A stretch of 64,000 nt of DNA from Carboxylicivirga sp. M1479 (GTDB lineage: Bacteria > Bacteroidota > Bacteroidia > Bacteroidales > Marinilabiliaceae): assembly GCF_007097485.1 (NCBI RefSeq), contig NZ_VKDE01000011.1:1-64000 (forward strand). The letters run 5' to 3'. A model generated the notes under the pieces. That model was not told where the DNA came from and ran no database searches. It saw nothing but the letters and a program-made list of their open reading frames with translations. Below, piece after piece: positions 6,294 to 20,447 of this stretch (position 1 is the first letter of the stretch; each line of letters starts with the position of its first letter). A program made the position numbers and the translations under genes.

Positions 6294-7574
6294 TTATATC
6301 AAATACTGAAATAAATCTGGTTTTTCATTCAGGTATTCCGCTACAAAACCGTGGCGTTCCATACGCTCCTGAAGACCATTAAAATCTTCTGGCTTTTGCA
6401 CTTCAATACCAATCACCACAGGCCCCATGGCGCGGGCTGTTTTCTTTTTGTACTCAAAATGTGTAATGTCATCTGTTGGCCCTAATACCTCGCCAACAAA
6501 TGTTTTTAAGGCCCCTGCACGCTGTGGAAAGCGAACAATGAAATAATGCTTCAGGCCTTCGTATAATAAGGAGCGCTCTTTAATCTCCTCGGTACGGGTT
6601 ATGTCGTTGTTACTACCACTGAGCACGCACACCACGTTTTTACCAATAATCTGGTCGGCATAATAATCCAATGCAGCAATACTCAAAGCTCCGGCAGGCT
6701 CAACCACAATGGCTTCGTAGTTGTACAGCTCCAATATTTTGGTACAAATCTTACCCTCGGGCACCAATATAATGTCATCTAACACGCGCTGACAAATTGG
6801 TAAATTGATACTACCAACTCGTTGTACGGCGGCACCATCAACAAATTTATCAATCTCAGGTAGTTCTACTACTTCGCCTTTTTCCATGGCTTGCTGCATG
6901 GCAGGTGCACCAGCGGGTTCAACACCTATTATTTTTGTTTCGGGTGTTATTTGCTTAATGTAAGCTCCTAAACCCGATGCTAAGCCACCACCTCCAATAG
7001 GTATAAAAATATAATCGATGGGTTTATCGGCCTGTTCGTATATCTCCAAACCAACCGTTGCCTGCCCCTCGATAATTTGTGGATCATCAAAAGGATGAAT
7101 AAAGGTACGACCGGTACGTGCACATTCATCCATGGCTGCATTGTAAGCATCATCGTAGGTATCACCCTTTAATACCACTTCAACAAAACCCTGACCAAAC
7201 ATTTTTACCTGGCTCACCTTTTGTTTTGGTGTGGTGGTTGGCATATAAATGTATCCGTTAATGTGTAGCTCTTTACACGAAAATGCTACACCTTGAGCAT
7301 GATTACCAGCGCTGGAACACACAATACCACCTGACACTTGTTGCTTTGTAAGGCTTTTAATTTTGTTATAAGCTCCTCTTATTTTGTACGAACGTACGGC
7401 TTGCAAATCTTCGCGCTTTAATGATACATTGGCGCAAAATTGTTTCGACAGGTTGCGATTACGCATTAATGGGGTTGTTTCAACCACCTCACTAATCGTT
7501 TCTTTAGCTTGTTTAACAGCTTCCAAACTGGGGTAGTAATCCGAAAAGGCTGCTATTTTGTTCTTTTTTGTCAT
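6294..7574 (-). CDS. ilvA: Threonine dehydratase (biosynthetic, single ACT-like domain)
   Basis: 426 aa. A PLP enzyme that deaminates threonine to 2-oxobutanoate, the classical entry to isoleucine. The catalytic lysine is K64 in SYKIRGAYNK. The phosphate-binding loop is GGGGLASGLG near 193, and CSSAGNHAQG near 87 is typical of fold-type II enzymes. A C-terminal ACT-like domain (from about 335, HYFIVRFPQRAGALKTF) gives feedback control; the E. coli enzyme has two such domains, this one a single domain. It is the last gene of the operon, 104 bp from leuB and separated from it by a terminator-like hairpin, so its level may differ from the upstream genes. cimA in the same operon supplies the same product by another route. 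Confidence 0.93.
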   Translation of the reverse strand: MTKKNKIAAFSDYYPSLEAVKQAKETISEVVETTPLMRNRNLSKQFCANVSLKREDLQAVRSYKIRGAYNKIKSLTKQQVSGGIVCSSAGNHAQGVAFSCKELHINGYIYMPTTTPKQKVSQVKMFGQGFVEVVLKGDTYDDAYNAAMDECARTGRTFIHPFDDPQIIEGQATVGLEIYEQADKPIDYIFIPIGGGGLASGLGAYIKQITPETKIIGVEPAGAPAMQQAMEKGEVVELPEIDKFVDGAAVQRVGSINLPICQRVLDDIILVPEGKICTKILELYNYEAIVVEPAGALSIAALDYYADQIIGKNVVCVLSGSNNDITRTEEIKERSLLYEGLKHYFIVRFPQRAGALKTFVGEVLGPTDDITHFEYKKKTARAMGPVVIGIEVQKPEDFNGLQERMERHGFVAEYLNEKPDLFQYLI

Positions 7575-7678: not shown

Positions 7679-8743
7679 TTAATTATTTTTAATGTAATTA
7701 GCGAGCCATGTACCTACTTCCGATGTTTTACTCACATTCGTGTCTTTAGCTATATCTTCAGTGACGACACCTGCATCGAGCGATTGGTTGACAGCTTCGC
7801 GCACTGCTTTAGCCTCGTCCAGTAGGTCGAGTGATTCCAACAACATAGCTGCCGAAAGTACCGTAGCAATCGGGTTAGCAATGTCTTTACCTGCTGCTTG
7901 CGGATAAGAACCGTGAATTGGCTCAAATACCGAAGTATGTACACCAACAGAAGCTGATGGCAACAGACCTAAGGAACCTGTGATGACCGATGCCTCATCG
8001 CTGATGATATCGCCAAACATATTTTCGGTTACCATCACATCAAACTTTTTAGGCCACTGTATCAACTGCATGGCTGCGTTATCTACAAACATGTAGTCCA
8101 CCTCAATATCTTTATAATCAGCTTCCATGCCTTGAGCTGTCTCTCGCCACAAACGCGATGTTGCCAACACGTTGGCTTTATCAATAACCGTTAAACGTTT
8201 ATCGCGCTTACCTGCATATGAGAAAGCTAACTTTAGAATGCGCTCAATCTCTTCGCTTGTATAGGTACAGGTGTCAAAGGCTTTCTTCAAATCTTCTGAA
8301 CGGCCCTTTTCACCAAAATAAATACCACCTGTTAACTCACGCACTACTACAAAATCAGCACCCTCTACAATGTCCAGGCGCAATGGGCTTTTGTCTAATA
8401 AAGACGGGAAAGTTGTAACAGGACGAATATTAGCATACAATCCTAGCTTTTTGCGCATGGCCAATAAGCCTTGCTCTGGACGTACTTTTGCTTTTGGATC
8501 GTTATCGTATTTAGGATCACCAATGGCACCAAATAATACAGCATCTGAGTTCATACAAACCTCATGCGTTTCATCCGGATAAGGGTTACCCACCTGGTCG
8601 ATAGCTGTTGCTCCCACCAAAGCATTGGTATAAGCTACTTCGTGATTAAATTTTTGTGCCACCGCATCAATTACTTTTTGCGCTTGTGTCACTATCTCCG
8701 GTCCGATGCCATCCCCTGGCAATACTGCAATGTTTAATTTCAT
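7679..8743 (-). CDS. leuB: 3-isopropylmalate dehydrogenase
   Basis: 354 aa, normal length. Oxidatively decarboxylates 3-isopropylmalate to 2-oxoisocaproate in leucine synthesis. The homologous 3-methylmalate step of the citramalate route to isoleucine is usually done by the same enzyme. Landmarks: [17 protein letters not shown] at the start, the substrate-binding arginines in [12 protein letters not shown] and [11 protein letters not shown], metal ligands in VDNAAMQLI and the [11 protein letters not shown] loop, and GLLPSASVG. It follows cimA by about 95 bp; its position next to cimA fits use of both substrates. Confidence 0.95.
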
Positions 8744-8828: not shown

Positions 8829-8841
8829 ATCTATTGGTCTA
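8829..8841 (-). repeat. Operon-spacer motif TAGACCAATAGAT, copy 1
   Basis: On the minus strand the motif starts with the TAG stop codon of cimA. Near-identical sequences stand just after ilvB (16246-16259) and ilvD (18096-18109). The rest of the spacer (8744-8828) is made of TAGA/TCTA-rich words including AGACGATTAGAC. Confidence 0.5.
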
Positions 8842-10371
8842 GTTAATTATTTTAATATTTCCGTTCTCAATCAAGTTAAGCATTTTTACCGTTGCTTTAA
8901 TGGCGGCCTCGGTTTGATCGGCATCCAAGCCACGTGTTTTAAAGAGTTTACCTTTAAACTCCCACGATATAACGGTTTCTACCAAAGCATCGGTTTTACC
9001 ACCTGGCGGAATCGTTACAATATAATCTTCTAACAAGGGGTGCTCCTTACCCAACTCGTCATATATTTTCCACAGGGCATGCATAAAGGCATCGTATTGT
9101 CCGTCGCCATTCGCTGTTTCCTGATAAATTTGTCCATCAATCTCAATGCTCACATTGGCCAAAGGCATCAGGCCTTTTGTTAGTTGCAAGCTGTAATTCT
9201 TAATTTTTATATGCTCTTTAATAGATGAACTCTTCAATACATCTGATATGATATAAGGTAAATCTTCAGTGGTAACGGTTTCTTTTTTATCACCTAATTC
9301 AATCACCCGCTCGGTTACTTTTTTCATCTCATCAGAGCTTAAATCAATACCCAGCTCCTCAAGGTTCTTTAGTATATTTGCTTTGCCCGATGTTTTACCC
9401 AAGGCGTACTTTCGCACTCTTCCAAAGCGCTCGGGCATCAAACGGTTAAAGTACAAATTATCCTTGTTGTCGCCATCGGCATGGATACCTGCACATTGTG
9501 TAAACACAAACTCGCCCGTTAAAGGCTTATTGCTTGGTATACGAATGCCCGAAAAACTCTCCACCAACTGGCTCAATTTCGTAATTTTCGATTCGTCGAT
9601 ATTACTGCTCACACCCAACTGATCGTTAAATAAACCAACCACACTTGCCAATGGTGCATTACCTGCACGCTCACCTAGCCCATTAATGGTGGTGTGAATG
9701 CCTTGCACTCCCGATTTAATGGCAGCAAAAGCGTTAGCTACGGCTAAGTCGTAGTCGTTATGAGCATGAAAATCGATGTGTAAATCCGGATAACGAGTGA
9801 TGATGGCTGAACAGAATTCTGCCACTTGATCAGGGTTTAATATCCCCAATGTATCGGGCAACATAAAGCGTTTGATACTTGTATCTTGTAAGGCATCTAA
9901 TATAAAATACACATAGTCTGGCGAATCAATCATACCATTGGACCAATCTTCCAGGTAGATATTAACCAACATATCCATCTCATCGGCTGCCTCAATTACT
10001 TTTTTAATATCGGCAACATGCTCTTCAGGGGTTTTTCCTAACTGGCTTGTAACATGTTTCAAGGAGCCTTTGGTTAACAGGTTTATTACACGACCGCCGG
10101 CACTCTTAATCCATTCCAATGAGGTGGTTCCGTCTACAAAGCCTAATACTTCAACCTTATCCAGAAGGCCTTTTTTATCGGCCCACTCGGTAATCTTTTG
10201 TACAGCACGGTATTCGCCATCGCTGACTCGTGCCGAAGCAACTTCTATTCTATCCACCTTTAACTCTTCGAGCAGCATGGTCGCCATGGCCAACTTCTCG
10301 GATTCGTTAAACGACACCCCGGTAGTTTGCTCGCCATCGCGTAAGGTGGTATCCATTAGCTCTATTGTCAT
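8839..10371 (-). CDS. cimA: (R)-citramalate synthase, Leptospira type
   Basis: 510 aa. Condenses pyruvate with acetyl-CoA to citramalate, the first step of the threonine-independent route to 2-oxobutanoate and isoleucine. A TIM-barrel domain ([11 protein letters not shown] at 8-18, HAHND metal site near 208, [11 protein letters not shown]) is followed by a C-terminal LeuA-type regulatory domain from about 390. From memory of the Leptospira interrogans enzyme, pyruvate selectivity comes from Leu81, Leu104 and Tyr144. An ungapped alignment by eye places L76, L99 and Y139 at these positions here. This separates it from the true LeuA further upstream. A 2-isopropylmalate-synthase annotation would be the likely automatic misnaming. 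Confidence 0.85.
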   Translation of the reverse strand: MTIELMDTTLRDGEQTTGVSFNESEKLAMATMLLEELKVDRIEVASARVSDGEYRAVQKITEWADKKGLLDKVEVLGFVDGTTSLEWIKSAGGRVINLLTKGSLKHVTSQLGKTPEEHVADIKKVIEAADEMDMLVNIYLEDWSNGMIDSPDYVYFILDALQDTSIKRFMLPDTLGILNPDQVAEFCSAIITRYPDLHIDFHAHNDYDLAVANAFAAIKSGVQGIHTTINGLGERAGNAPLASVVGLFNDQLGVSSNIDESKITKLSQLVESFSGIRIPSNKPLTGEFVFTQCAGIHADGDNKDNLYFNRLMPERFGRVRKYALGKTSGKANILKNLEELGIDLSSDEMKKVTERVIELGDKKETVTTEDLPYIISDVLKSSSIKEHIKIKNYSLQLTKGLMPLANVSIEIDGQIYQETANGDGQYDAFMHALWKIYDELGKEHPLLEDYIVTIPPGGKTDALVETVISWEFKGKLFKTRGLDADQTEAAIKATVKMLNLIENGNIKIIN

Positions 10372-10773: not shown

Positions 10774-11373
10774 TTAAAATTTAACCGCTTGCTTTTCGTA
10801 AGCTTCAATCTCATTGCTGATGCTGAACAGGTAATCAATATCGTCGTAGCCATTCATCATGCAGTTTTTCTTGTAGCTATTGATTTCAAAGCTTTCTGAA
10901 TCTCCTGTTGCGACATTCGTGATTGTCTGGTTTTCCAAGTCAATTTTTACTTCGGTTTTGTTATCTGCATCAACGGCAGTAAACAAGCCTGCTAAAAATC
11001 CTTCTGACACCTGAACTGGTAAAACACCGTTGTTTAATGAGTTACCACGAAATATATCGGCAAAGAAACTCGATACCACAGCCTTAAAACCGTAGCCATC
11101 GATAGCCCAGGCAGCATGCTCGCGACTTGAACCACTTCCGAAGTTCTTGCCAGCCACCAATACAGTACCTGAGTAAGCCGGGTTATTCAATACAAAATCC
11201 GCTTTAGGCGAACCGTCTTTTTCATATCTCCAATCGTAGAACAGGTTATCTCCAAATCCCTCTTTGGTTGTAGCCTTTAGGAAGCGAGCTGGAATGATCT
11301 GATCAGTATCCACATTTTCGATTGGCATTGGCACAAACGAAGTCTGAACTGTTACAAATTTATCTTTTGGCAT
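10774..11373 (-). CDS. leuD: 3-isopropylmalate dehydratase small subunit
   Basis: 199 aa. Swivelling domain of the LeuCD isomerase that turns 2-isopropylmalate into 3-isopropylmalate (and citramalate into methylmalate in the CimA route). Landmarks: [14 protein letters not shown] near 19-32, [18 protein letters not shown] near 73-90, and NNGVLPV. Its start is 15 bp after the leuC stop, the tightest junction in the operon, as expected for two subunits needed in equal amounts. Downstream lie about 400 bp of REP-type repeats before cimA. Confidence 0.95.
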
Positions 11374-11388
11374 AATTCTTCCTCCTGA

Positions 11389-12792
11389 TTAAAAGTTAAA
11401 GATGGTACGTGGATCGGTAACAACACCTGTTACAGCTGCCGCAGCCGCTGTTAACGGACTGGCTAGTAAAGTACGAGAGCCTGGCCCTTGTCGACCTTCA
11501 AAATTTCGGTTCGAAGTAGCCACCGCATACTTACCTGCTGGTATTTTATCATCGTTCATGGCTAAACAAGCCGAACAACCGGGCTGGCGTAGTTCAAAAC
11601 CTGCCGCTTCTAACTGTTCTTTCAAACCTTCAGCAATGGCTTGCTTCTCTACTTGTTTGCTTCCAGGTACTATCCAGGCAGTCACGCTTTCTGCTTTCTG
11701 CTTACCTTTTACAGCTTCACAAAACGAACGTAGGTCTTCAATACGCCCATTAGTACAACTACCAACAAACACATAATCAACTTGCTTACCTTCCAATTGG
11801 TCGCCAGCCTCAAAACCCATGTATTCCATTGATTTCTGGAATGAGTTCTTCGAGCTATCCTCAATGGAGTCAAGCGTAGGGATGCTTTCACATACCTTAG
11901 CTCCCATACCCGGATTGGTTCCGTAGGTAATCATTGGCTCTATGTCAGCTGCATCGTAAGTTAATTCCTTATGAAAAACCGCATCTGCATCGGTCACAAG
12001 AGACTTCCAATAAGCTACAGCCTTGTCCCATTGCTCACCTTGAGGAGCTTGCTCACGACCTTTGATGTATTCAAAAGTGGTTTCATCAGGAGCAATCATA
12101 CCTCCTCTGGCACCCATCTCAATACTCATGTTACAAATGGTCATACGAGCTTCCATCGATAAACTACGGATGGCCGAACCGGCAAACTCAACAAAGTAGC
12201 CAGTACCACCGCCAGTTGTTAACTTGGAGATGATGTATAAAATAATGTCTTTAGACGTTACTCCCTTATGCAAATCACCTTCTATGTTAATGCGCATGCT
12301 TTTAGGCTTGGGCTGCATTATACATTGTGTGGCCAAAGCCATTTCCACTTCACTGGTACCAATACCAAAAGCAATACTACCGAATGCGCCATGCGTTGAT
12401 GTGTGACTATCGCCACAAACAATGGTCATTCCCGGTTGTGTTATACCCAACTCAGGACCTACAACGTGTACAATACCATTATACGGATGATTGAGTCCAT
12501 ACATAGTAATGCCATTCTCTTCGCAGTTCTTTTTTAATGTTTCCACCTGCACACGCGATAACTCATCTTGTATCGTCAGGTGCTGATTAACGGTAGGAAT
12601 ATTGTGGTCGGGTGTAGCAATAACCTGCGACGGACGTGCTACTTTTCCTCCACGAGCTTTAATACCCCCAAATGCTTGCGGACTCGTTACTTCGTGAATA
12701 AAGTGACGGTCGATGTAAAGGACGTTTGGCCCGTCGTCAATGCTCTTGACAACGTGGCTGTCCCATATTTTATCAAATAATGTTTTTCCCAT
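11389..12792 (-). CDS. leuC: 3-isopropylmalate dehydratase large subunit
   Basis: 467 aa from the ATG at 12792 ([15 protein letters not shown]). An upstream ATG at 12816 would add eight residues inside the repeat-like spacer and is less likely. It carries the [4Fe-4S] cluster of the aconitase-type isomerase: cysteines in [14 protein letters not shown] and in [23 protein letters not shown] and [14 protein letters not shown] are family signatures. It partners LeuD immediately downstream. Confidence 0.95.
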
Positions 12793-12800
12793 TGTTTTAT

Positions 12801-12832
12801 AAGTATCAAGTATCAAGATTAAAGTATCAAGA
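12801..12832. repeat. Short direct repeats AGTATCAAG in the leuA-leuC spacer
   Basis: AAGTATCAAG at 12801, TATCAAG at 12811 and AAGTATCAAG at about 12822 stand in tandem just before leuC. The same word AAGTATCA forms the hairpin at 14453 in the neighbouring spacer. Confidence 0.45.
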
Positions 12833-12881: not shown

Positions 12882-14378
12882 TTATCCTATTTTCGAAATT
12901 GCGTCTAAGAATGCTTCCACCGATGCTGTGATAATATCTACATTAGCAGAGAAACCATAATAAGTATGTCCCTTGTGTTCCACTTGAACATGTACTTTAC
13001 CAAGGTCATCGCTACCGCGTGTTATGGCTTGAATCAAGAATTCCTCCAAATGAACTTTACGCTTCACCAAGCTTTTAACAGCTGAGAAAGCAGCATCAAT
13101 TGGCCCATTACCCGAGGCTGTTTCGGTAAATACATCACCATTAAAATTAACAGCAACAGTGGCGGTTGGTATAGTTGAGCTACCAGAGATTACTTGAAGT
13201 GATTCTAACTTAACAGAACGATCTTTCTTCTCTATCTCAGTTCCTGCTAATGCTTCCAAGTCCTCATCAGCCACATCTTTTTTCTTATCGGCCAAATCAA
13301 GGAAACGGTTATAGACATCATCCAACTCAGGTCCTTCAAACTCATATCCTAATACATGCAAACGGTGCTTTAAGGCAGCGCGTCCACTACGTGCAGTCAA
13401 CACAATGCTTGATTCTTTCACCCCTACTTCAGCAGGGTCAATAATTTCGTAGTTCTCACGGTTTTTCAATACCCCATCCTGGTGAATACCTGATGAATGT
13501 GCAAAAGCATTACGCCCAACAATGGCTTTATTAGCCTGCACTGGCATGCGCATCAATGTAGAAACCAACTTACTGGTTTTCATTATCTGCTTTGAGTCAA
13601 TGCCTGTTTGGTAATCCAAGTCGTGGTGCGCCTTCATAGCCATTACAACCTCTTCCAAGGATGTATTACCAGCACGTTCGCCCAATCCGTTAATCGTCAC
13701 CTCAACCTGGCGAGCACCGTTAATCACTCCCGATAGGGTGTTGGCAGTGGCCATACCCAAGTCGTTGTGGCAGTGCGTTGATAAGATGGCTTTATCGACG
13801 TTTGGAACGTTATTAACCAAGTAGGCTATTTTAGCACCGTACTCGGCTGGCAAGCAATAACCTGTTGTATCAGGAATATTAATAACAGTAGCTCCTGCTT
13901 TAATAACAGCTTCAACCACACGGGCCAAGTATTCGTTATCTGAGCGACCAGCATCTTCGGCATAGAATTCCACATCCTCGACAAAACGCTTGGCGTATTT
14001 AACTGCTTCAACAGCACGTTCTACTATTTCGTCTTCGTTGGAATTTAATTTGTATTTAATGTGATAAGGTGATGTGCCAATACCAGTATGGATACGCCCA
14101 CGCTTAGCAAACTTCAAAGCATCAGCGGCTACTTCAATATCTTTTTTTACTGCGCGAGTTAAGGCGCAAATGGTTGGATTCTGAACGGCCTTTGAAATCT
14201 CGACCACCGAATTAAAATCTCCGGGGCTCGAAATGGGGAATCCAGCTTCGATCACATCAACACCGAGCTTCTCGAGTTGACGGGCTACTTCTATCTTTTC
14301 AATAGTGTTTAACTGGCATCCCGGCACTTGCTCGCCGTCTCTTAATGTTGTATCGAATATATGAACTTTATTATCCAT
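12882..14378 (-). CDS. leuA: 2-isopropylmalate synthase
   Basis: 498 aa, the standard short LeuA. Condenses 2-oxoisovalerate with acetyl-CoA, first committed step to leucine. [15 protein letters not shown] near 10-24, the metal-binding HCHNDLGMA near 202, [14 protein letters not shown] and the linker [13 protein letters not shown] are typical. The C-terminal allosteric domain (about 380-498) binds leucine in relatives. It differs clearly from the CimA-type paralogue three genes downstream (different residues after TLRDGEQ). It is preceded by a 120-bp spacer with a strong hairpin. Confidence 0.95.
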
Positions 14379-14498: not shown

Positions 14499-15551
14499 TT
14501 ACTTATCTTGGTTTTCTGGTCTCAATTTACGGACAGCAGCACCTGCTTGCCACATTTCAGAGTCGTTCAACTCTTTCAATTCAGCATCTAGCTTCACTCG
14601 GTAATCAGCTTGACTATTAGAGTCAATTGAACGCTGTGCTTCGTTACCCGCAGCAACTTCTGCATATAATTTTTCAAACACTGGCTTGGTAGCATCGCGG
14701 AAAGGCTTCCACCAGTCTAAGGCACCACGCTGAGCAGTAGTCGATGTATTCGCGTACATCCAGTCCATACCGTTTTCAGCAACCAAAGGCATCAAGCTTT
14801 GTGTTAATTCCTCAACCGTTTCGTTGAATGCTTCAGATGGCGAGTGACCATTAGCACGTAAAACTTCGTATTGAGCTGCGAAAATACCCTGGATACATCC
14901 CATTAAAGTACCACGCTCACCAGTTAAATCGGAGTATACCTCGCGTTTGAAATCAGTTTCGAATAAGTAACCCGAACCAACGCCAATACCCAAGGCGATA
15001 ACACGATCGTAAGCTTTACCTGTTGCATCCTGGAAAATAGCGAATGAAGAGTTCAAACCACGTCCTTCTAGGAACATACGACGTAATGAAGTTCCTGAAC
15101 CTTTAGGTGCAACCAAAATCACATCAACATCTGCAGGAGGTACAATACCCGAACGCTCTTTGTAAGTGATACCAAATCCATGCGAGAAATAAAGGGCTTT
15201 GCCAGGTGTTAAGTGCTTCTTAACGGTATCCCACATTTGAATTTGACCAGCATCCGAAAGTAAGTATTGAATAATTGTTGCTTTAGCTAAAGCTTCTTCT
15301 ATTTCAAAAAGAGTTTCTCCTGGAACCCAACCATCAGCAATGGCTTTGTCCCATGTTTTTGATTCTTTGCGCTGGCCAACAATTACATTAAAACCGTTGT
15401 CTTTTAGGTTGAGTGACTGACCTGGACCTTGCACACCATAACCAATAACAGCAATGGTTTCGTCTTTTAATACCTCTAGTGCTTTTTCCAATGGGAACTC
15501 TTCCCTCATTACTACGTTTTCTTCTGTTCCTCCGAAATTAATTTTTGCCAT
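14499..15551 (-). CDS. ilvC: Ketol-acid reductoisomerase
   Basis: 350 aa, class I length. Isomerises and reduces acetolactate and acetohydroxybutyrate, shared by valine, leucine and isoleucine synthesis. N-terminal Rossmann motif VIGYGVQGPGQSLNLKDNG near 36-54 followed by VGQRKESKTW, which sets cofactor use. The C-terminal helical knotted domain carries the metal-binding acidic residues (DLTGERGTLMG near 229, and EETVEELTQ-type helix). Its start is about 80 bp after ilvN. Confidence 0.95.
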   Translation of the reverse strand: MAKINFGGTEENVVMREEFPLEKALEVLKDETIAVIGYGVQGPGQSLNLKDNGFNVIVGQRKESKTWDKAIADGWVPGETLFEIEEALAKATIIQYLLSDAGQIQMWDTVKKHLTPGKALYFSHGFGITYKERSGIVPPADVDVILVAPKGSGTSLRRMFLEGRGLNSSFAIFQDATGKAYDRVIALGIGVGSGYLFETDFKREVYSDLTGERGTLMGCIQGIFAAQYEVLRANGHSPSEAFNETVEELTQSLMPLVAENGMDWMYANTSTTAQRGALDWWKPFRDATKPVFEKLYAEVAAGNEAQRSIDSNSQADYRVKLDAELKELNDSEMWQAGAAVRKLRPENQDK

Positions 15552-15630: not shown

Positions 15631-16173
15631 TTAGTCTAATAAGGACTTTTCTTTTTCGAGCTTCTTCAGGTAATTCGAGAGCAACTCATCCTTTAGCTTG
15701 GTTACTGCAATTCTACCTGACCGAACAAACTGCTGTACTCCAAAATGATCGAGTTTTTCAAAAAGCTCCTGTGTTTCGCGCTTATGACCAGTCTTTTCAA
15801 TCACTGTATATTCCTTGGTTACTTCCAAAATACGTGCTCCGTACTGACGCACTAAACGCTCAATTTCGTTGCTATTTAATAAAGACTCTGTTTTTACCTT
15901 GTACAAAGCCACTTCCTGATGCACTATTTCCTCAGCAGTAAACACGTATGCTTTTATTACATCAATGCGCTTTTCTATTTGCAACATTAATTTGGTTACC
16001 TGCTCGCGCGATGTAAATACCACAATGGTAAATTTATGAATGCCTGGTATGGCCGATTCGGAAGTGGTTAAACTCTCGATGTTAATATGGCGACGTGTAA
16101 AAACGGTTGTCACCTGATTTAAAAGGCCGACGTGGTTTTCTGAATATATTGATAATGTGAATTCTTGTTTCAT
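15631..16173 (-). CDS. ilvN: Acetolactate synthase regulatory subunit
   Basis: 180 aa. Small subunit that activates IlvB and makes it sensitive to valine. N-terminal ACT domain (residues 1-75: FTLSIYSENHVGLLNQVTTVFTRRHINIESL) and a second ALS-type domain from about 80 (EIVHQEVALYKVKTE). The C-terminal end is Lys/Glu rich. It follows ilvB by about 100 bp, the usual order. Confidence 0.93.
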   Translation of the reverse strand: MKQEFTLSIYSENHVGLLNQVTTVFTRRHINIESLTTSESAIPGIHKFTIVVFTSREQVTKLMLQIEKRIDVIKAYVFTAEEIVHQEVALYKVKTESLLNSNEIERLVRQYGARILEVTKEYTVIEKTGHKRETQELFEKLDHFGVQQFVRSGRIAVTKLKDELLSNYLKKLEKEKSLLD

Positions 16174-16274: not shown

Positions 16275-18011
16275 TTACTCAAGGCGTACTTCAGAAACGG
16301 AAGCTCCCGTTGGTACCATTGGAAAAACATTTCCTTCTTTCTCAACCACTACTTCTAATAAGAAAGCACCTTTGTGCTGAGCCATACGTTCTACCGCAGC
16401 ATCCAAATCATCACGCTCGGTTACTTTTTCAGTTGCAATACCGTATCCTTTAGCAATGGTTTGAAAATCGGGATTCATCAACTCAGTAGAGGCATAGCGC
16501 TTATCAAAGAATAACTCTTGCCACTGACGCACCATTCCTAAAAAGTTATTATTTAGTAAGATGATTTTCACATCAGCCTGCGTTTGAAAGATTGTTCCCA
16601 ACTCCTGAATTGTCATCTGGAAACCACCATCTCCAACGAACAAGCAAACAGGACGCTCTGGTTGACCTAACTTAGCTCCTAAGGCTGCTGGCAATCCAAA
16701 GCCCATGGTACCCAATCCTCCTGATGTTACAACACTGCGCGTTTGTTTAAACTTAAAGTAACGTGATGCAAACATCTGGTGCTGGCCAACATCAGTTACC
16801 ATAATAGCATCATCATCGTATTGCTCTGTTACTCTACGTACCACTTCACCCATCGTCAACCCTTCTTTTGATGGATACAACTCTTCTTGGATGATTTTTT
16901 GATCCTCGATTTTATCGCAAGCCTTAAACTCGCCTAACCAAGCCTCGTGTTTATTTTCTGATGCCATTTTGGTCAACATCGGTAATGAATCTTTCACATC
17001 ACCAAGTACCGGTACATCGGCATAGATTATTTTATTTATTTCAGCTGGATCAATTTCTAAATGCACCACTTTAGCATTGGTCGCATATTTTTGAACATTA
17101 CCCGTTACACGATCGTCAAAACGCATTCCAATGGCAATGATCACATCCGCTTCATTGGTTTTTACATTTGGTCCATAATGACCGTGCATACCCAACATAC
17201 CCACATTCTGATCAAAGTCACTTGGCATGGCCGACAAACCTAACAAAGTCCATGCAGCGGGGATCCCTGTCTTCTTTAAGAAGTCCATCAACTCATTTTC
17301 GGCACCTCCCAACACAACACCTTGTCCTACCAAAGCAAGAGGCTTCTTGGCTAAATTGATTAAACGAACTGCTTCAGCCACCTGTTCTGATTTCACAAGT
17401 GTTTTAGGCTGATAACTTCTAACCCTATTTACTTTGTTATACTCAAAATCAAACTGAGCAAACTGAGCATCTTTAGTGATGTCAATTAACACTGGCCCAG
17501 GACGTCCTGTTGAGGCAATATAAAAAGCTTTGGCAATGGCTTCAGGAATTTCTTCTGCTCGCTTTACCTGATAGTTCCATTTGGTAATTGGCTGAGTGAT
17601 ACCAACCACATCGGTCTCCTGAAAAGCATCGGTTCCCAGAAGAGCCGAACCAACCTGACCACTAATCACAACCATTGGTGTTGAATCAACCATGGCATCG
17701 GCAATACCTGTAACAGCATTGGTTGCACCTGGTCCACTTGTAACAAAGCAAACGCCAACTTTGCCAGTGACTCGTGCATATCCTTGCGCCGCATGAACAG
17801 CACCCTGCTCATGACGAGTTAAAATATGATTCAACTGATCCTTGTAGTGGTAAAGTGCATCATACACAGGCATAATAGCCCCACCCGGATATCCAAAAAG
17901 CAAGTCCACACCTTCGTGCAAAAGGGACTGCATCACGGCTTCGGAGCCACTCATTCGTTTCTTTTTCATTTCCTTGGCTTCCATGGTTGTTGTTTGCGTT
18001 TGTGTTTCCAT
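16275..18011 (-). CDS. ilvB: Acetolactate synthase catalytic subunit
   Basis: 578 aa. A ThDP- and FAD-dependent enzyme joining two pyruvates (or pyruvate and 2-oxobutanoate). The catalytic glutamate is in LTRHEQGAVHAAQGYAR near 63-79. The ThDP-binding motif is GDGGFQMTIQELGTI to NNNFLGMVRQWQ near 465-510. SGPGATNAVTGIADAM is typical of the family. The first about 20 residues (Thr/Gln and Lys/Met rich) are less conserved, so the start could be at MKKKRMSGSEAV, residue 15. It partners IlvN directly downstream. Confidence 0.95.
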   Translation of the reverse strand: METQTQTTTMEAKEMKKKRMSGSEAVMQSLLHEGVDLLFGYPGGAIMPVYDALYHYKDQLNHILTRHEQGAVHAAQGYARVTGKVGVCFVTSGPGATNAVTGIADAMVDSTPMVVISGQVGSALLGTDAFQETDVVGITQPITKWNYQVKRAEEIPEAIAKAFYIASTGRPGPVLIDITKDAQFAQFDFEYNKVNRVRSYQPKTLVKSEQVAEAVRLINLAKKPLALVGQGVVLGGAENELMDFLKKTGIPAAWTLLGLSAMPSDFDQNVGMLGMHGHYGPNVKTNEADVIIAIGMRFDDRVTGNVQKYATNAKVVHLEIDPAEINKIIYADVPVLGDVKDSLPMLTKMASENKHEAWLGEFKACDKIEDQKIIQEELYPSKEGLTMGEVVRRVTEQYDDDAIMVTDVGQHQMFASRYFKFKQTRSVVTSGGLGTMGFGLPAALGAKLGQPERPVCLFVGDGGFQMTIQELGTIFQTQADVKIILLNNNFLGMVRQWQELFFDKRYASTELMNPDFQTIAKGYGIATEKVTERDDLDAAVERMAQHKGAFLLEVVVEKEGNVFPMVPTGASVSEVRLE

Positions 18012-18113: not shown

Positions 18114-19943
18114 TTAATCAATCATTCGTACTGCACCTTGATCAGCAGCACTTACCAGACTGGCATAGGCTTTCAAGGCTTTTGATACATATCGTTCTCT
18201 TTTTCCTGGCTTAAAAGCATCGGCTCCTTTAGCTTCTTCGGCAGCGCGTCTTTTAGCCAATTCATCGGCACTTATTTGTAATTCTATTTTTCTGTTGGGG
18301 ATATCAATTAATATCGGATCACCATTCTGTACCAAAGCAATATTTCCACCTCCGGCAGCCTCAGGCGATGCATGTCCAATTGATAAACCAGATGTACCAC
18401 CAGAAAAACGACCATCCGTTAACAAAGCACACTCTTTACCCAAATGCTTCGACTTTAGGTAGGATGTTGGATACAGCATTTCTTGCATGCCCGGTCCTCC
18501 CTTTGGTCCTTCGTAGCGGATGATAACCACATCTCCTGCCTTTACCTCATCAGATAAAATACCGTCGCAGGCATCATCTTGCGATTCGTAAACACGAGCT
18601 GTTCCGTTAAACGTAAAGATATCTTCATCAACGCCGGCAGTTTTTACAACACAACCGTTTTCTGCCAGGTTACCAAACAAAATAGCTAAACCTCCATCTT
18701 GGAAGTATGCACCTTCTACGCTCCTAATACAGCCCTTTTCTCTGTCTAAATCCAACTGACCATACTTTGTTTTTTGCGAACCCATGGTTAAGTTGAACAT
18801 TCCTGCAGGTGCACTGGTATAAACTTCTTTGGCTTCTTCAGAAATCGATTTGCTCATGACATCATAAGCGTCGATGGCCTCTTTCAAACTAGGAAAATCA
18901 ACACGACTCACATCTGTATGTAATAAACCACCTCGGTTTAATTCTGCTAAAATCCCCATGATACCACCAGCACGATTCACATCCTCGATATGGTAGTTTG
19001 AATTTGGAGCTACTTTACACAGCACAGGAGTTAAGCGTGATAAACGGTCAATGTCAGCCATTGTAAAATCAACACCTGCTTCATGAGCGATTGCCAGAAT
19101 GTGCAAGACCGTGTTGGTTGACCCTCCCATGGCAATATCCAAAGTCATGGCATTCTCAAATGACTTATAGCTGGCAATGGAACGAGGCAAAACAGATTCA
19201 TCTCCTTCGCCATAATATTTATTGGTAATATCTACGATTAAGTCTGCTGCTTTTTCAAATAAAGCCTTGCGATTAACGTGCGTGGCAACAATGGTTCCGT
19301 TACCTGGTAAAGCCAATCCAATGGCTTCATTCAAGCAGTTCATTGAGTTCGCAGTGAACATACCCGAGCAAGATCCACAAGTTGGACAGGCATTGCGCTC
19401 AACCTCATCCACCTCTTCATCAGAAACAGAATCGTCGGCCGCCATTACCATGGCATCTACTAAGTCAAGAGCTTTACCGCCAGCTTTACCAGCTTCCATC
19501 GGACCACCCGAAACAAACACGGCTGGAATATTTAAACGCATGGCAGCCATTAACATACCAGGTGTAATCTTATCGCAATTACTGATACAAACCATGGCAT
19601 CCACTTTATGCGCATTGGCCATGTACTCAACACTGTCGGCAATTATATCACGCGATGGTAATGAATACAACATGCCGTCGTGCCCCATAGCGATCCCATC
19701 GTCGATGGCAATCGTATTGAACTCAGCAGCGAAGCATCCGTTGGCTTCAATACGTTGCTTAACCATTTGGCCAATGTCGTGCAAATGCACATGACCAGGC
19801 ACAAACTGTGTGAATGAATTCACCACCGCAATTACTGGCTTACCAAAGTGTTGTTCTTTCATGCCATTGGCACGCCACAAACTCCTGGCTCCCGCCATTC
19901 TCCTGCCTTGTGTTGATGTTGCGCTTCTAAGTGTTATCTTCAT
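18114..19943 (-). CDS. ilvD: Dihydroxy-acid dehydratase
   Basis: 609 aa. Dehydrates the dihydroxy acids to 2-oxo acids in the common BCAA pathway; a [Fe-S] and Mg enzyme. Cluster cysteines lie in [12 protein letters not shown] near 121-132 and [17 protein letters not shown] near 192-208. The C-terminal part has [21 protein letters not shown]. It is the first structural gene of the operon; its start is 19 bp beyond the attenuator terminator. The long 5' leader makes it the direct target of attenuation control. Confidence 0.95.
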
Positions 19944-19961: not shown

Positions 19962-19998
19962 AAAAAAAAGAGCTTTTCTCGTTTGTGAGAAAAGCTCT
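19962..19998 (-). terminator. Attenuator terminator upstream of ilvD
   Basis: On the minus strand AGAGCTTTTCTC (19998-19987) pairs perfectly with GAGAAAAGCTCT (19980-19969) around a 6-nt loop and is followed by eight T (19969-19962). The 5' arm and loop also contain TTCTCAC (19991-19985), which can pair with the upstream GTGAGAA, giving a competing antiterminator. See the leader peptide at 20046-20114. Confidence 0.9.
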
Positions 19999-20032
19999 TC
20001 TGTATTTTATATCTGTCGATTTATCTACATAG

Positions 20033-20041
20033 CATTCTCAC
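20033..20041 (-). promoter_or_regulatory. Shared attenuator strand (region 2)
   Basis: GTGAGAATG begins 5 nt after the leader stop codon. Its TGAGAATG is complementary to CATTCTCA in leader codons 7-10 (20094-20087), and its GTGAGAA to TTCTCAC in the terminator (19991-19985). It can pair with either, which is the classical switch of a translation-coupled attenuator. Confidence 0.75.
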
Positions 20042-20045
20042 TCCT

Positions 20046-20114
20046 CTAGGTTCTAATAATAATGACCACGAGAATAATAATAATGTTGAGAATGAGTGAT
20101 AAATTAAATTTCAT
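20046..20114 (-). CDS. ilv operon leader peptide (22 aa)
   Basis: A 22-codon frame starting at the ATG at 20114 and ending in TAG at 20048-20046. Composition: eight Ile, four Leu and two Val, 14 of 22; codons 7-9 and 11-20 are all branched-chain. It lies between a good promoter (20189-20218) and a perfect intrinsic terminator before ilvD. This is the layout of leader-peptide attenuators such as E. coli ilvL. When charged Ile/Leu/Val tRNAs are scarce the ribosome would stall in the Ile/Val run, cover region 1, free region 2 to block the terminator and allow transcription. The product itself is not expected to have another function. Confidence 0.88.
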   Translation of the reverse strand: MKFNLSLILNIIIILVVIIIRT

Positions 20115-20188
20115 CTTGAAATTATATTTTAATTTTTTGATGCTTTAGTTTTTTACATCCTAAACCACCATGTTGCTTTTTACGTTAG

Positions 20189-20218
20189 CAAATGTAGGAT
20201 TGATTTTTTTATCTCCAA
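20189..20218 (-). promoter_or_regulatory. Promoter of the ilv-leu operon
   Basis: TACATTTG (20196-20189 on the minus strand) matches the Bacteroidota -7 element TAnnTTTG. TTG at 20218-20216 is the -33 element, with 19 bp between them. Transcription would start near 20180, giving about 65 nt before the leader peptide ATG. Confidence 0.7.
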
Positions 20219-20447
20219 AGAAATAGTCAAAAAAATGTAGAATTATTTTACAATTTGATTTTTTAGATAGCGATTACCTTACTATTTACACCCCTCTCTT
20301 ATATATAAGGTATCGTTCAAAAAAAAACAGCAAAATAAAGACTTCTAGGTCTCATTCTTAAACTCTGAAATTATGCACCTTACACAGCACACGATTAAAG
20401 CTCATGCGGAAGAACAAAATATAAGTTCAATTCAAACATGATATTTA

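Follow-up and report, generated by a model that had tools for sequence, protein, structure and literature searches.

The window, by which we mean the whole stretch of 64,000 nucleotides that was analysed, carries the same-strand gene run ilvD-ilvB-ilvN-ilvC-leuA-leuC-leuD-cimA-like-leuB-ilvA. Gene names were assigned by using NCBIfam, as follows.

18114-19943, minus strand: ilvD, dihydroxy-acid dehydratase, first gene of the run (NF009103, 1081 bits)
16275-18011, minus strand: ilvB, acetolactate synthase large subunit (TIGR00118)
15631-16173, minus strand: ilvN/ilvH, acetolactate synthase small subunit (TIGR00119)
14499-15551, minus strand: ilvC, ketol-acid reductoisomerase (TIGR00465)
12882-14378, minus strand: leuA, 2-isopropylmalate synthase (NF002086, TIGR00973)
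11389-12816, minus strand: leuC (TIGR00170)
10774-11373, minus strand: leuD (TIGR00171)
8839-10371, minus strand: cimA-like, citramalate synthase-like (best NCBIfam match NF042433, 656.7 bits, below the cut-off of 950)
7679-8743, minus strand: leuB (TIGR00169, 458.7 bits)
6294-7574, minus strand: ilvA, threonine ammonia-lyase (TIGR02079)

The run from ilvD to ilvA presumably forms one transcript, although co-transcription is made uncertain by a gap of 402 nt between leuD and the cimA-like gene. The latter gene (8839-10371), placed between leuD and leuB, and the presence of ilvA in the same run hint at two routes to isoleucine. In the gap between ilvC and leuA, a hairpin AAGTATCAGGAC/GTCCTGATACTT followed by GTTTCTTT (window 14485-14453) is perhaps an internal terminator; no leader ORF was seen between these two genes in the window.

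Upstream of ilvD, the minus strand carries, in order, a promoter, a leader ORF, a switch strand, and an intrinsic terminator. The features of this region are the following.

21245-20448: ORF with a weak BamP match (31 bits; cut-off, 230), on the other flank of the attenuator region from ilvD
20189-20219, minus strand: Bacteroidota-type promoter, read by eye as TTTG (20219-20216), 19 nt, and TACATTTG (20196-20189)
20046-20114, minus strand: leader peptide ORF MKFNLSLILNIIIILVVIIIRT, with ATG at 20114, stop codon TAG at 20048-20046, and 22 codons; kept in relatives
20088-20104, minus strand: region 1, within the leader, ATTTATC...CATTCTC, partner of region 2
20055-20084, minus strand: regulatory codons 11 to 20, comprising four Ile, Leu-Val-Val (CTC GTG GTC), and three Ile
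20019-20041, minus strand: region 2, GTGAGAATGCTATGTAGATAAAT, in which GTGAGAA pairs with region 3, and GAGAATG and GATAAAT pair with region 1
19985-19999, minus strand: region 3, AAGAGCTTTTCTCAC, the 5' arm of the terminator and also a partner of region 2
19962-19980, minus strand: region 4 and U tract, GAGAAAAGCTCTT, the 3' arm of the terminator, with T8 at 19969-19962

An earlier note on this DNA had described a promoter, a 22-codon leader, and a terminator in that order, and the sequence bears this out. The leader composition that it gave is likewise correct: eight Ile, four Leu, and two Val, with every codon from 7 to 20 specifying a branched-chain residue except Asn10. The terminator is perfect, as claimed, but we count a 13-bp stem, AAGAGCTTTTCTC/GAGAAAAGCTCTT, rather than 12 bp, followed by eight T (19999-19962); a terminator scan counts 15 pairs, including flanks. 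The switch strand GTGAGAATG (20041-20033) does lie just after the leader stop codon, from which it is separated by 4 nt. This strand had been said to pair either with leader codons 7 to 10 or with TTCTCAC of the terminator. Both pairings are present, and the first extends farther than was stated, with ATTTATC of the leader (20104-20098) paired to GATAAAT (20025-20019) as well. About 25 nt lie between the terminator and the ATG of ilvD.

The promoter motif TTG-N17-21-TAnnTTTG occurs within 200 nt upstream in 77 of 91 leaders, as compared with 22 of 1820 mononucleotide shuffles. A scan of the region with the sigma-70 consensus gave a number of sites no higher than that in shuffles, and so indicated no promoter beyond chance. 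Two members of the genus differ in spacing: at locus L005, the promoter box lies 164 nt ahead of the leader, and at locus L008, 98 nt separate the terminator from ilvD. No Shine-Dalgarno site was seen by eye before the leader in the window. Bacteroidia make little use of Shine-Dalgarno initiation.

The amino acid content of the leader is unusual for this DNA. Fourteen of its 22 codons specify Ile, Leu, or Val, and at least 14 would be expected with P = 4e-5, given the frequency of these residues in 14 window genes. One explanation for such an ORF is that its product acts in itself, as a small hydrophobic membrane peptide or a type I toxin (Ibs-like), and that the hairpin is simply the terminator of that gene. 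Indeed, MKFNLSLILNIIIILVVIIIRT is a short and highly hydrophobic sequence whose end lies ahead of a terminator, as is the case for some type I toxins. However, 13 of the 14 core residues of the leader are products of the downstream pathway, and region 1 lies within the coding sequence, where it pairs specifically with region 2. These observations, together with the behavior of related leaders described below, make a peptide or toxin function very unlikely in our estimation.

Codon choice within the leader is also skewed. Three of its four Leu codons are CTC, which accounts for 5.1% of Leu codons in window genes (P = 0.0005), and one of its two Val codons is GTC, which is rare as well (5.9% in window genes). 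Rare CTC and GTC codons should sharpen sensitivity, but because CTC is also required for the pairing of region 1, rarity and pairing are inseparable as reasons for its use. A separate observation concerns the hexamer TCGTGG, found in the leader core (window 20071-20066, and the equivalent position in relatives) of 61 of 91 leaders, whereas 300 recodings gave a mean of 17.2 and a maximum of 29; this is an enrichment of about 3.5-fold among related rows. The hexamer may reflect a pause element, rare codons, or an inner hairpin.

To follow the element in other organisms, we looked for IlvD in 60 relatives, of which 48 matched, in 71 genomes of the family (68 matched), in 392 genomes of the phylum (277 matched), and in a named genome collection, from which the best 80 loci were kept. 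Judged by IlvD, Saccharicrinis sp. UBA6048 (91%) is the closest named relative among these 80 loci; its genus is assigned by NCBI to Marinilabiliaceae. From the same 80 loci, 29 named loci were chosen by title, with exclusion of L031, L034, and L062 (duplicate or short upstream) and of non-Bacteroidota titles; one of the 29, L066, is identical to family locus L140. Each of 139 loci was then scored by the densest 12-residue window of Ile, Leu, and Val in any ATG-initiated ORF of 12 to 40 codons located within 400 nt upstream. The ATG rule misses leaders that start with GTG (L041, and L237 by eye).

A score of at least 9 was obtained for 61 of the 67 loci in the family, for 16 of the 18 from the rest of the order, and for 18 of the 29 in the named set, so that 6, 2, and 11 loci, respectively, scored lower. 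The order count excludes G337, which belongs to another class; with G337, it is 16 of 19. The same score was reached by none of 695 dinucleotide shuffles and by 3 of 139 reverse complements. When the three near groups are pooled (including G337), 95 of 115 loci score at least 9, versus 0 of 575 of their shuffles. At ilvD loci elsewhere in the class or phylum, one of 24 reached this score, in addition to none of one for G337. Most leaders of the window's genus are nearly alike (MKFNLSLIL[ND]IIIILVV...), and the leader of Bacteroides graminisolvens is MITSTSINLSLLDIISVVVVPSRA. That the leader precedes ilvD in relatives is a further point against a free-standing peptide or toxin. By a strict scan, a terminator follows 91 of the 101 leaders that score at least 8. 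The other ten (L022, L024, L029, L052, L117, L118, L133, L136, L155, and L157) each show an imperfect or large-loop hairpin by eye; they are absent from the pairing, swap, leader codon-count, hexamer, promoter-motif, and Val-composition tests.

Evidence for the alternative structures was sought in a family alignment, A2, which comprises 45 of 55 family sequences. L134 and L137-L145 were left out of A2 and hence also of the covariation tests and of the covariance model R1. In A2, the gaps that fall within the leader core (columns 31-54) have lengths divisible by three; together with the conserved frame, this is an indirect sign of translation. For the terminator pairing, 3:4, 76 cells are changed on both sides, compared with a shuffled mean of 26.2, and for the antiterminator pairing, 2:3, 21 cells are changed on both sides, compared with a shuffled mean of 8.5; in each case, none of 500 shuffles scored as high. 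Both pairings scored lower when the partners were slid by one to three columns. Examples of 2:3 that are apparent by eye include GCAGAAGTGAGA/TCTCACTTCTGC (L023), GGGAAGTGAGAA/TTCTCACTTCCC (L013), and GGAGTGAGA/TCTCACTCC (L016). The protector pairing, 1:2, is 88.3% paired in A2, a value as high as which was found in 1 of 500 shuffles, but it exhibits no clear covariation there: two pairs are changed on both sides versus 2.0 expected, 11 cells are changed on both sides versus 3.5 expected (reached by 44 of 500 shuffles), and the covariation score is reached by 103 of 500.

The alternative pairings were also assessed by a swap test, in which each sequence was given the region 2 of other genera, with one hand-picked representative per genus (n = 40). 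For 1:2, the mean with the sequence's own partner is -17.5 kcal/mol, versus -13.6 kcal/mol with exchanged partners, and for 2:3, the values are -17.6 and -12.2 kcal/mol; none of 20,000 permutations was as good for either helix. The result holds for both helices in the 25 sequences outside the window's family. Inclusion of the family duplicate L066 gives 41 sequences and also 0 of 20,000; the count of 40 follows its removal. When all sequences were used (88 distinct of 91), a sequence's own pairing exceeded the cross-species mean in 75 of 88 cases for each helix. Against shuffled versions of region 2, z was below -2 in 74 of 88 sequences for 2:3, but in only 31 of 88 for 1:2. Support for 1:2 is thus drawn from the wider swap test, not from the family alignment. 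On these comparisons, each of the two alternative pairings is particular to the sequence in which it occurs. The earlier note had proposed aligning the regions upstream of ilvD; the Ile/Leu/Val-rich frame, the terminator, and the alternative pairings all recur in relatives.

Conservation of this kind also bears on the question of whether the RNA itself might be a metabolite riboswitch or a T-box that senses branched-chain amino acids or uncharged tRNA directly, with an incidental ORF. T-boxes are another RNA class that uses terminator-antiterminator leaders at branched-chain genes. A ppGpp riboswitch is a further such class, according to the accessible text of its description (PMC8632094). At this locus, it is the codons and the switch pairing that are maintained from one family to another. 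Moreover, Rfam gave no matches in the window at gathering thresholds, and at E ≤ 1 it gave two weak matches across ten loci (the own genome and nine relatives), both far below gathering scores and neither credible: one lies inside ilvD on the opposite strand, and the other assigns the terminator region of L013 to mir-465, an animal microRNA, at 28.5 bits versus a cut-off of 65. We regard direct sensing by the RNA as extremely unlikely.

We examined the dependence of the structures on translation by moving a 28-nt ribosome footprint along the window RNA, with the start assumed at 20180 and the end set after region 3. In these folding calculations, 1:2 has a probability of 0.84 when no ribosome is present. 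With the P site on any of codons 3 to 13, 2:3 predominates (0.94 to 0.98), so that the Ile codons 11 to 14 and the Leu codons 7 and 9 are the predicted stall sites that would free region 2. With the P site on codons 14 to 18, 2:3 drops to 0.3 to 0.4, and the Val and late Ile codons may therefore act weakly. Once the ribosome stands on the last codon, both 1:2 and 2:3 are absent. When the full-length RNA is folded at equilibrium, the terminator wins at every ribosome position, which implies that any switch must be kinetic, decided during transcription. The greater equilibrium strength of 3:4, which far exceeds that of 2:3, would suit a constitutive promoter-proximal terminator that merely fixes the expression level, with regulation left to a DNA-binding protein. 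Such a terminator, however, has no need of a covarying antiterminator or of an ORF whose amino acids match the operon, and we give this explanation hardly any weight.

The region exhibits the features expected of an attenuator: a run of codons for the relevant amino acids, an intrinsic terminator, an antiterminator (2:3) that is exclusive with 3:4, a protector hairpin (1:2) that overlaps the leader ORF, and a stop codon placed such that a finishing ribosome would mask region 2. A four-region switch of the E. coli ilv/trp type, as the earlier note had suggested, is supported by conservation, by the preference of each sequence for its own partner, and by the ribosome-placed folding. Taken at the level of sequence, the anatomy of the element, its conservation, the exclusivity of the pairings, their own-partner specificity, and the match between leader composition and gene are established, and we consider it very probable that the ilv-leu genes are regulated by ribosome-mediated transcription attenuation of the kind found at E. 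coli ilv, leu, and trp.

The start site, translation of the leader, actual termination, and the starvation response are inferred, and we propose that they are related as follows. Transcription would begin right after TACATTTG, and a ribosome would trail RNA polymerase along the leader ORF. A shortage of charged tRNA for Ile, Leu, or Val would stall the ribosome at approximately codons 8 to 14, where it would mask region 1. Region 2 (GTGAGAA), left free by the stall, could then pair with region 3 (TTCTCAC) while region 4 is still to be transcribed, and formation of 2:3 would block the terminator, so that the ilv-leu genes are transcribed. When these amino acids are plentiful, the ribosome would reach the stop codon and mask region 2, and 3:4 would end transcription ahead of ilvD. 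If the leader is not translated, 1:2 would form, and the terminator would form as well.

The covariance model R1 of the element was searched in 396 genomes of the class, of which 114 match at E ≤ 0.01. Among the matches listed, all 27 with E ≤ 3.5e-5 precede an amino acid biosynthesis gene; many of the weaker matches may be due to chance. Six of these 27 lie at ilvD by coordinates, and the other 21 were fetched and read (genes named by NCBIfam for 12 and from the protein start by eye for nine). These 21 precede leuA in 12 cases, all in the window's order, ilvD in three, ilvE in four, a thrA-like gene in one, and hisG in one, with the ilvE, thrA-like, and hisG leaders coming from other orders of the class. 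The hisG leader is MNFIQLHHHHFHHCPQAK. At L241 (G455:C7), a Thr/Ile leader, MTINNTTIITIITTGINFGGR, and a terminator precede a gene resembling aspartokinase-homoserine dehydrogenase, an arrangement like that of the E. coli thr leader.

The composition of these leaders follows the gene. Core Val is absent from all 11 leuA leaders counted, and at least two Val are present in 33 of 35 ilvD leaders of the order and named sets (Fisher P = 6e-9; 34 of 36 when the duplicate L066 is counted). The twelfth leuA leader (L226) likewise lacks core Val by eye. Such specificity is a strong argument against a hydrophobic peptide that acts in itself. In two genomes, G014 (L230, C4:20167) and G431 (L231, C72:14695), the leuA leader lies 7.6 and 10 kb, respectively, downstream of an ilvD leader on the same contig and strand; a second attenuator, of the Leu/Ile type, thus seems to exist in some genomes.

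Because ilvD loci elsewhere gave one leader in 24, we considered that the leader might be limited to the window's order. This idea was dropped, in view of ilvE leaders in four genomes of other orders. We then collected 21 loci of the class with a close ilvE match (E < 1e-65), of which one edge case was left out. Upstream of ilvE, 13 of the remaining 20 loci score at least 8 under a laxer length rule, versus 1 of 20 reverse complements, and four of the seven lower loci (L248, L250, L251, and L255) hold short frames rich in Ile and Val by eye. The absence of leaders at ilvD outside the order thus reflects operon order, at least in part.

Other amino acid operons in the same genome carry leaders as well. 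Before trpE (L194:1001-1560; G000:C43, trpE at 244160), a Trp-Trp leader, MNLILTHKGWWHYTFLSNES, is followed by a terminator. Before hisG (L193:1001-1560; G000:C43, hisG at 266423), two His leader units, MQNFIHHHDYVFFQNW and MTTKQFHMHHHHYLFPRMS, are stacked, each with its own hairpin and T run; we refer to this pair as a putative double His attenuator. With their His and Trp runs, these leaders are not hydrophobic, contrary to what a membrane peptide or toxin would predict. Of 36 genomes, 32 gave a match to hisG, and 30 loci were inspected. All genomes of the window's genus but G005 (13 of 14) carry the stacked pair, as does G048, another genome of the order. Among the other hisG loci, 12 have one unit, G020 and G039 have none by scan, and G016 is doubtful.

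Leader-peptide attenuators are textbook systems in Proteobacteria. Those of E. coli ilvGMEDA, ilvBN, and leuABCD have four regions that form mutually exclusive hairpins, an intrinsic terminator, and a leader that is enriched in the amino acids of the operon and uses rare codons. All of these features, compared as features rather than by sequence, are found here too; unlike E. coli, the element described here has a Bacteroidota promoter, no Shine-Dalgarno site by eye, and ilv and leu genes in one run. According to the available text of two reports, the Corynebacterium ilvBNC leader likewise uses an upstream ORF and hairpins to attenuate an ilv operon, in another phylum and with another first gene (PMC10272879, PMC11857589). 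The ilv attenuator peptide of Staphylococcus aureus, as described in excerpts of its report, is similarly Leu-rich and precedes branched-chain genes, but belongs to Firmicutes and works beside CodY (PMC5794164). Two leader ORFs in one leader mRNA, comparable to the stacked His units, occur in Salmonella mgtCBR. There, in the accessible portion of the source, they respond to two signals (ATP and proline) ahead of an Mg2+/virulence operon (PMC3641672), whereas here two His leaders, each with a terminator, precede hisG.

Within Bacteroidota, the available passages on Flavobacterium psychrophilum report "strong clues" of leader-peptide attenuation before amino acid operons (PMC9723704); these concern one species, and alternative pairings are not compared in those passages. 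In B. thetaiotaomicron, according to the accessible text of another study, some long 5' UTRs contain sORFs "reminiscent of leader peptides," of which BT_4401 is named (PMC7366714), and leader genes have been counted by distance in Bacteroidetes among others, in the part of that study available (PMC4833913). The text of a study of the B. thetaiotaomicron regulatory network contains none of the terms "attenuat," "leader," and "ilv" (PMC12596196). A 2010 survey, in its accessible part, knew of leader peptide systems demonstrated only in Proteobacteria and Actinobacteria, to which it added Firmicutes (PMC2965389). In open-licence main texts, we found no worked case from Bacteroidales, although some of these leaders may have been listed earlier.

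Judged by sequence evidence, the ilvD element is mechanistically classical and well supported, a known kind of switch in a phylum where it is hardly described. The switch is backed by covariation across many genera of one order of Bacteroidota, and the R1 model extends to leuA, ilvE, thrA-like, and hisG genes; the interest of the system lies in this breadth and in the stacked His units. Bacteroidota are common in the gut and the sea. We hold it to be an evenly balanced proposition that leader-peptide attenuation is a general and largely unannotated means of controlling amino acid operons (ilv, leu, his, trp, and thr) in the class Bacteroidia, stacked in places, as in the double His unit of the window's genus. 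Because ORFs this short escape ordinary gene callers, annotation of the phylum may lack a layer of regulation. The system can also serve to test ribosome-polymerase coupling in a setting where initiation is independent of Shine-Dalgarno sites.
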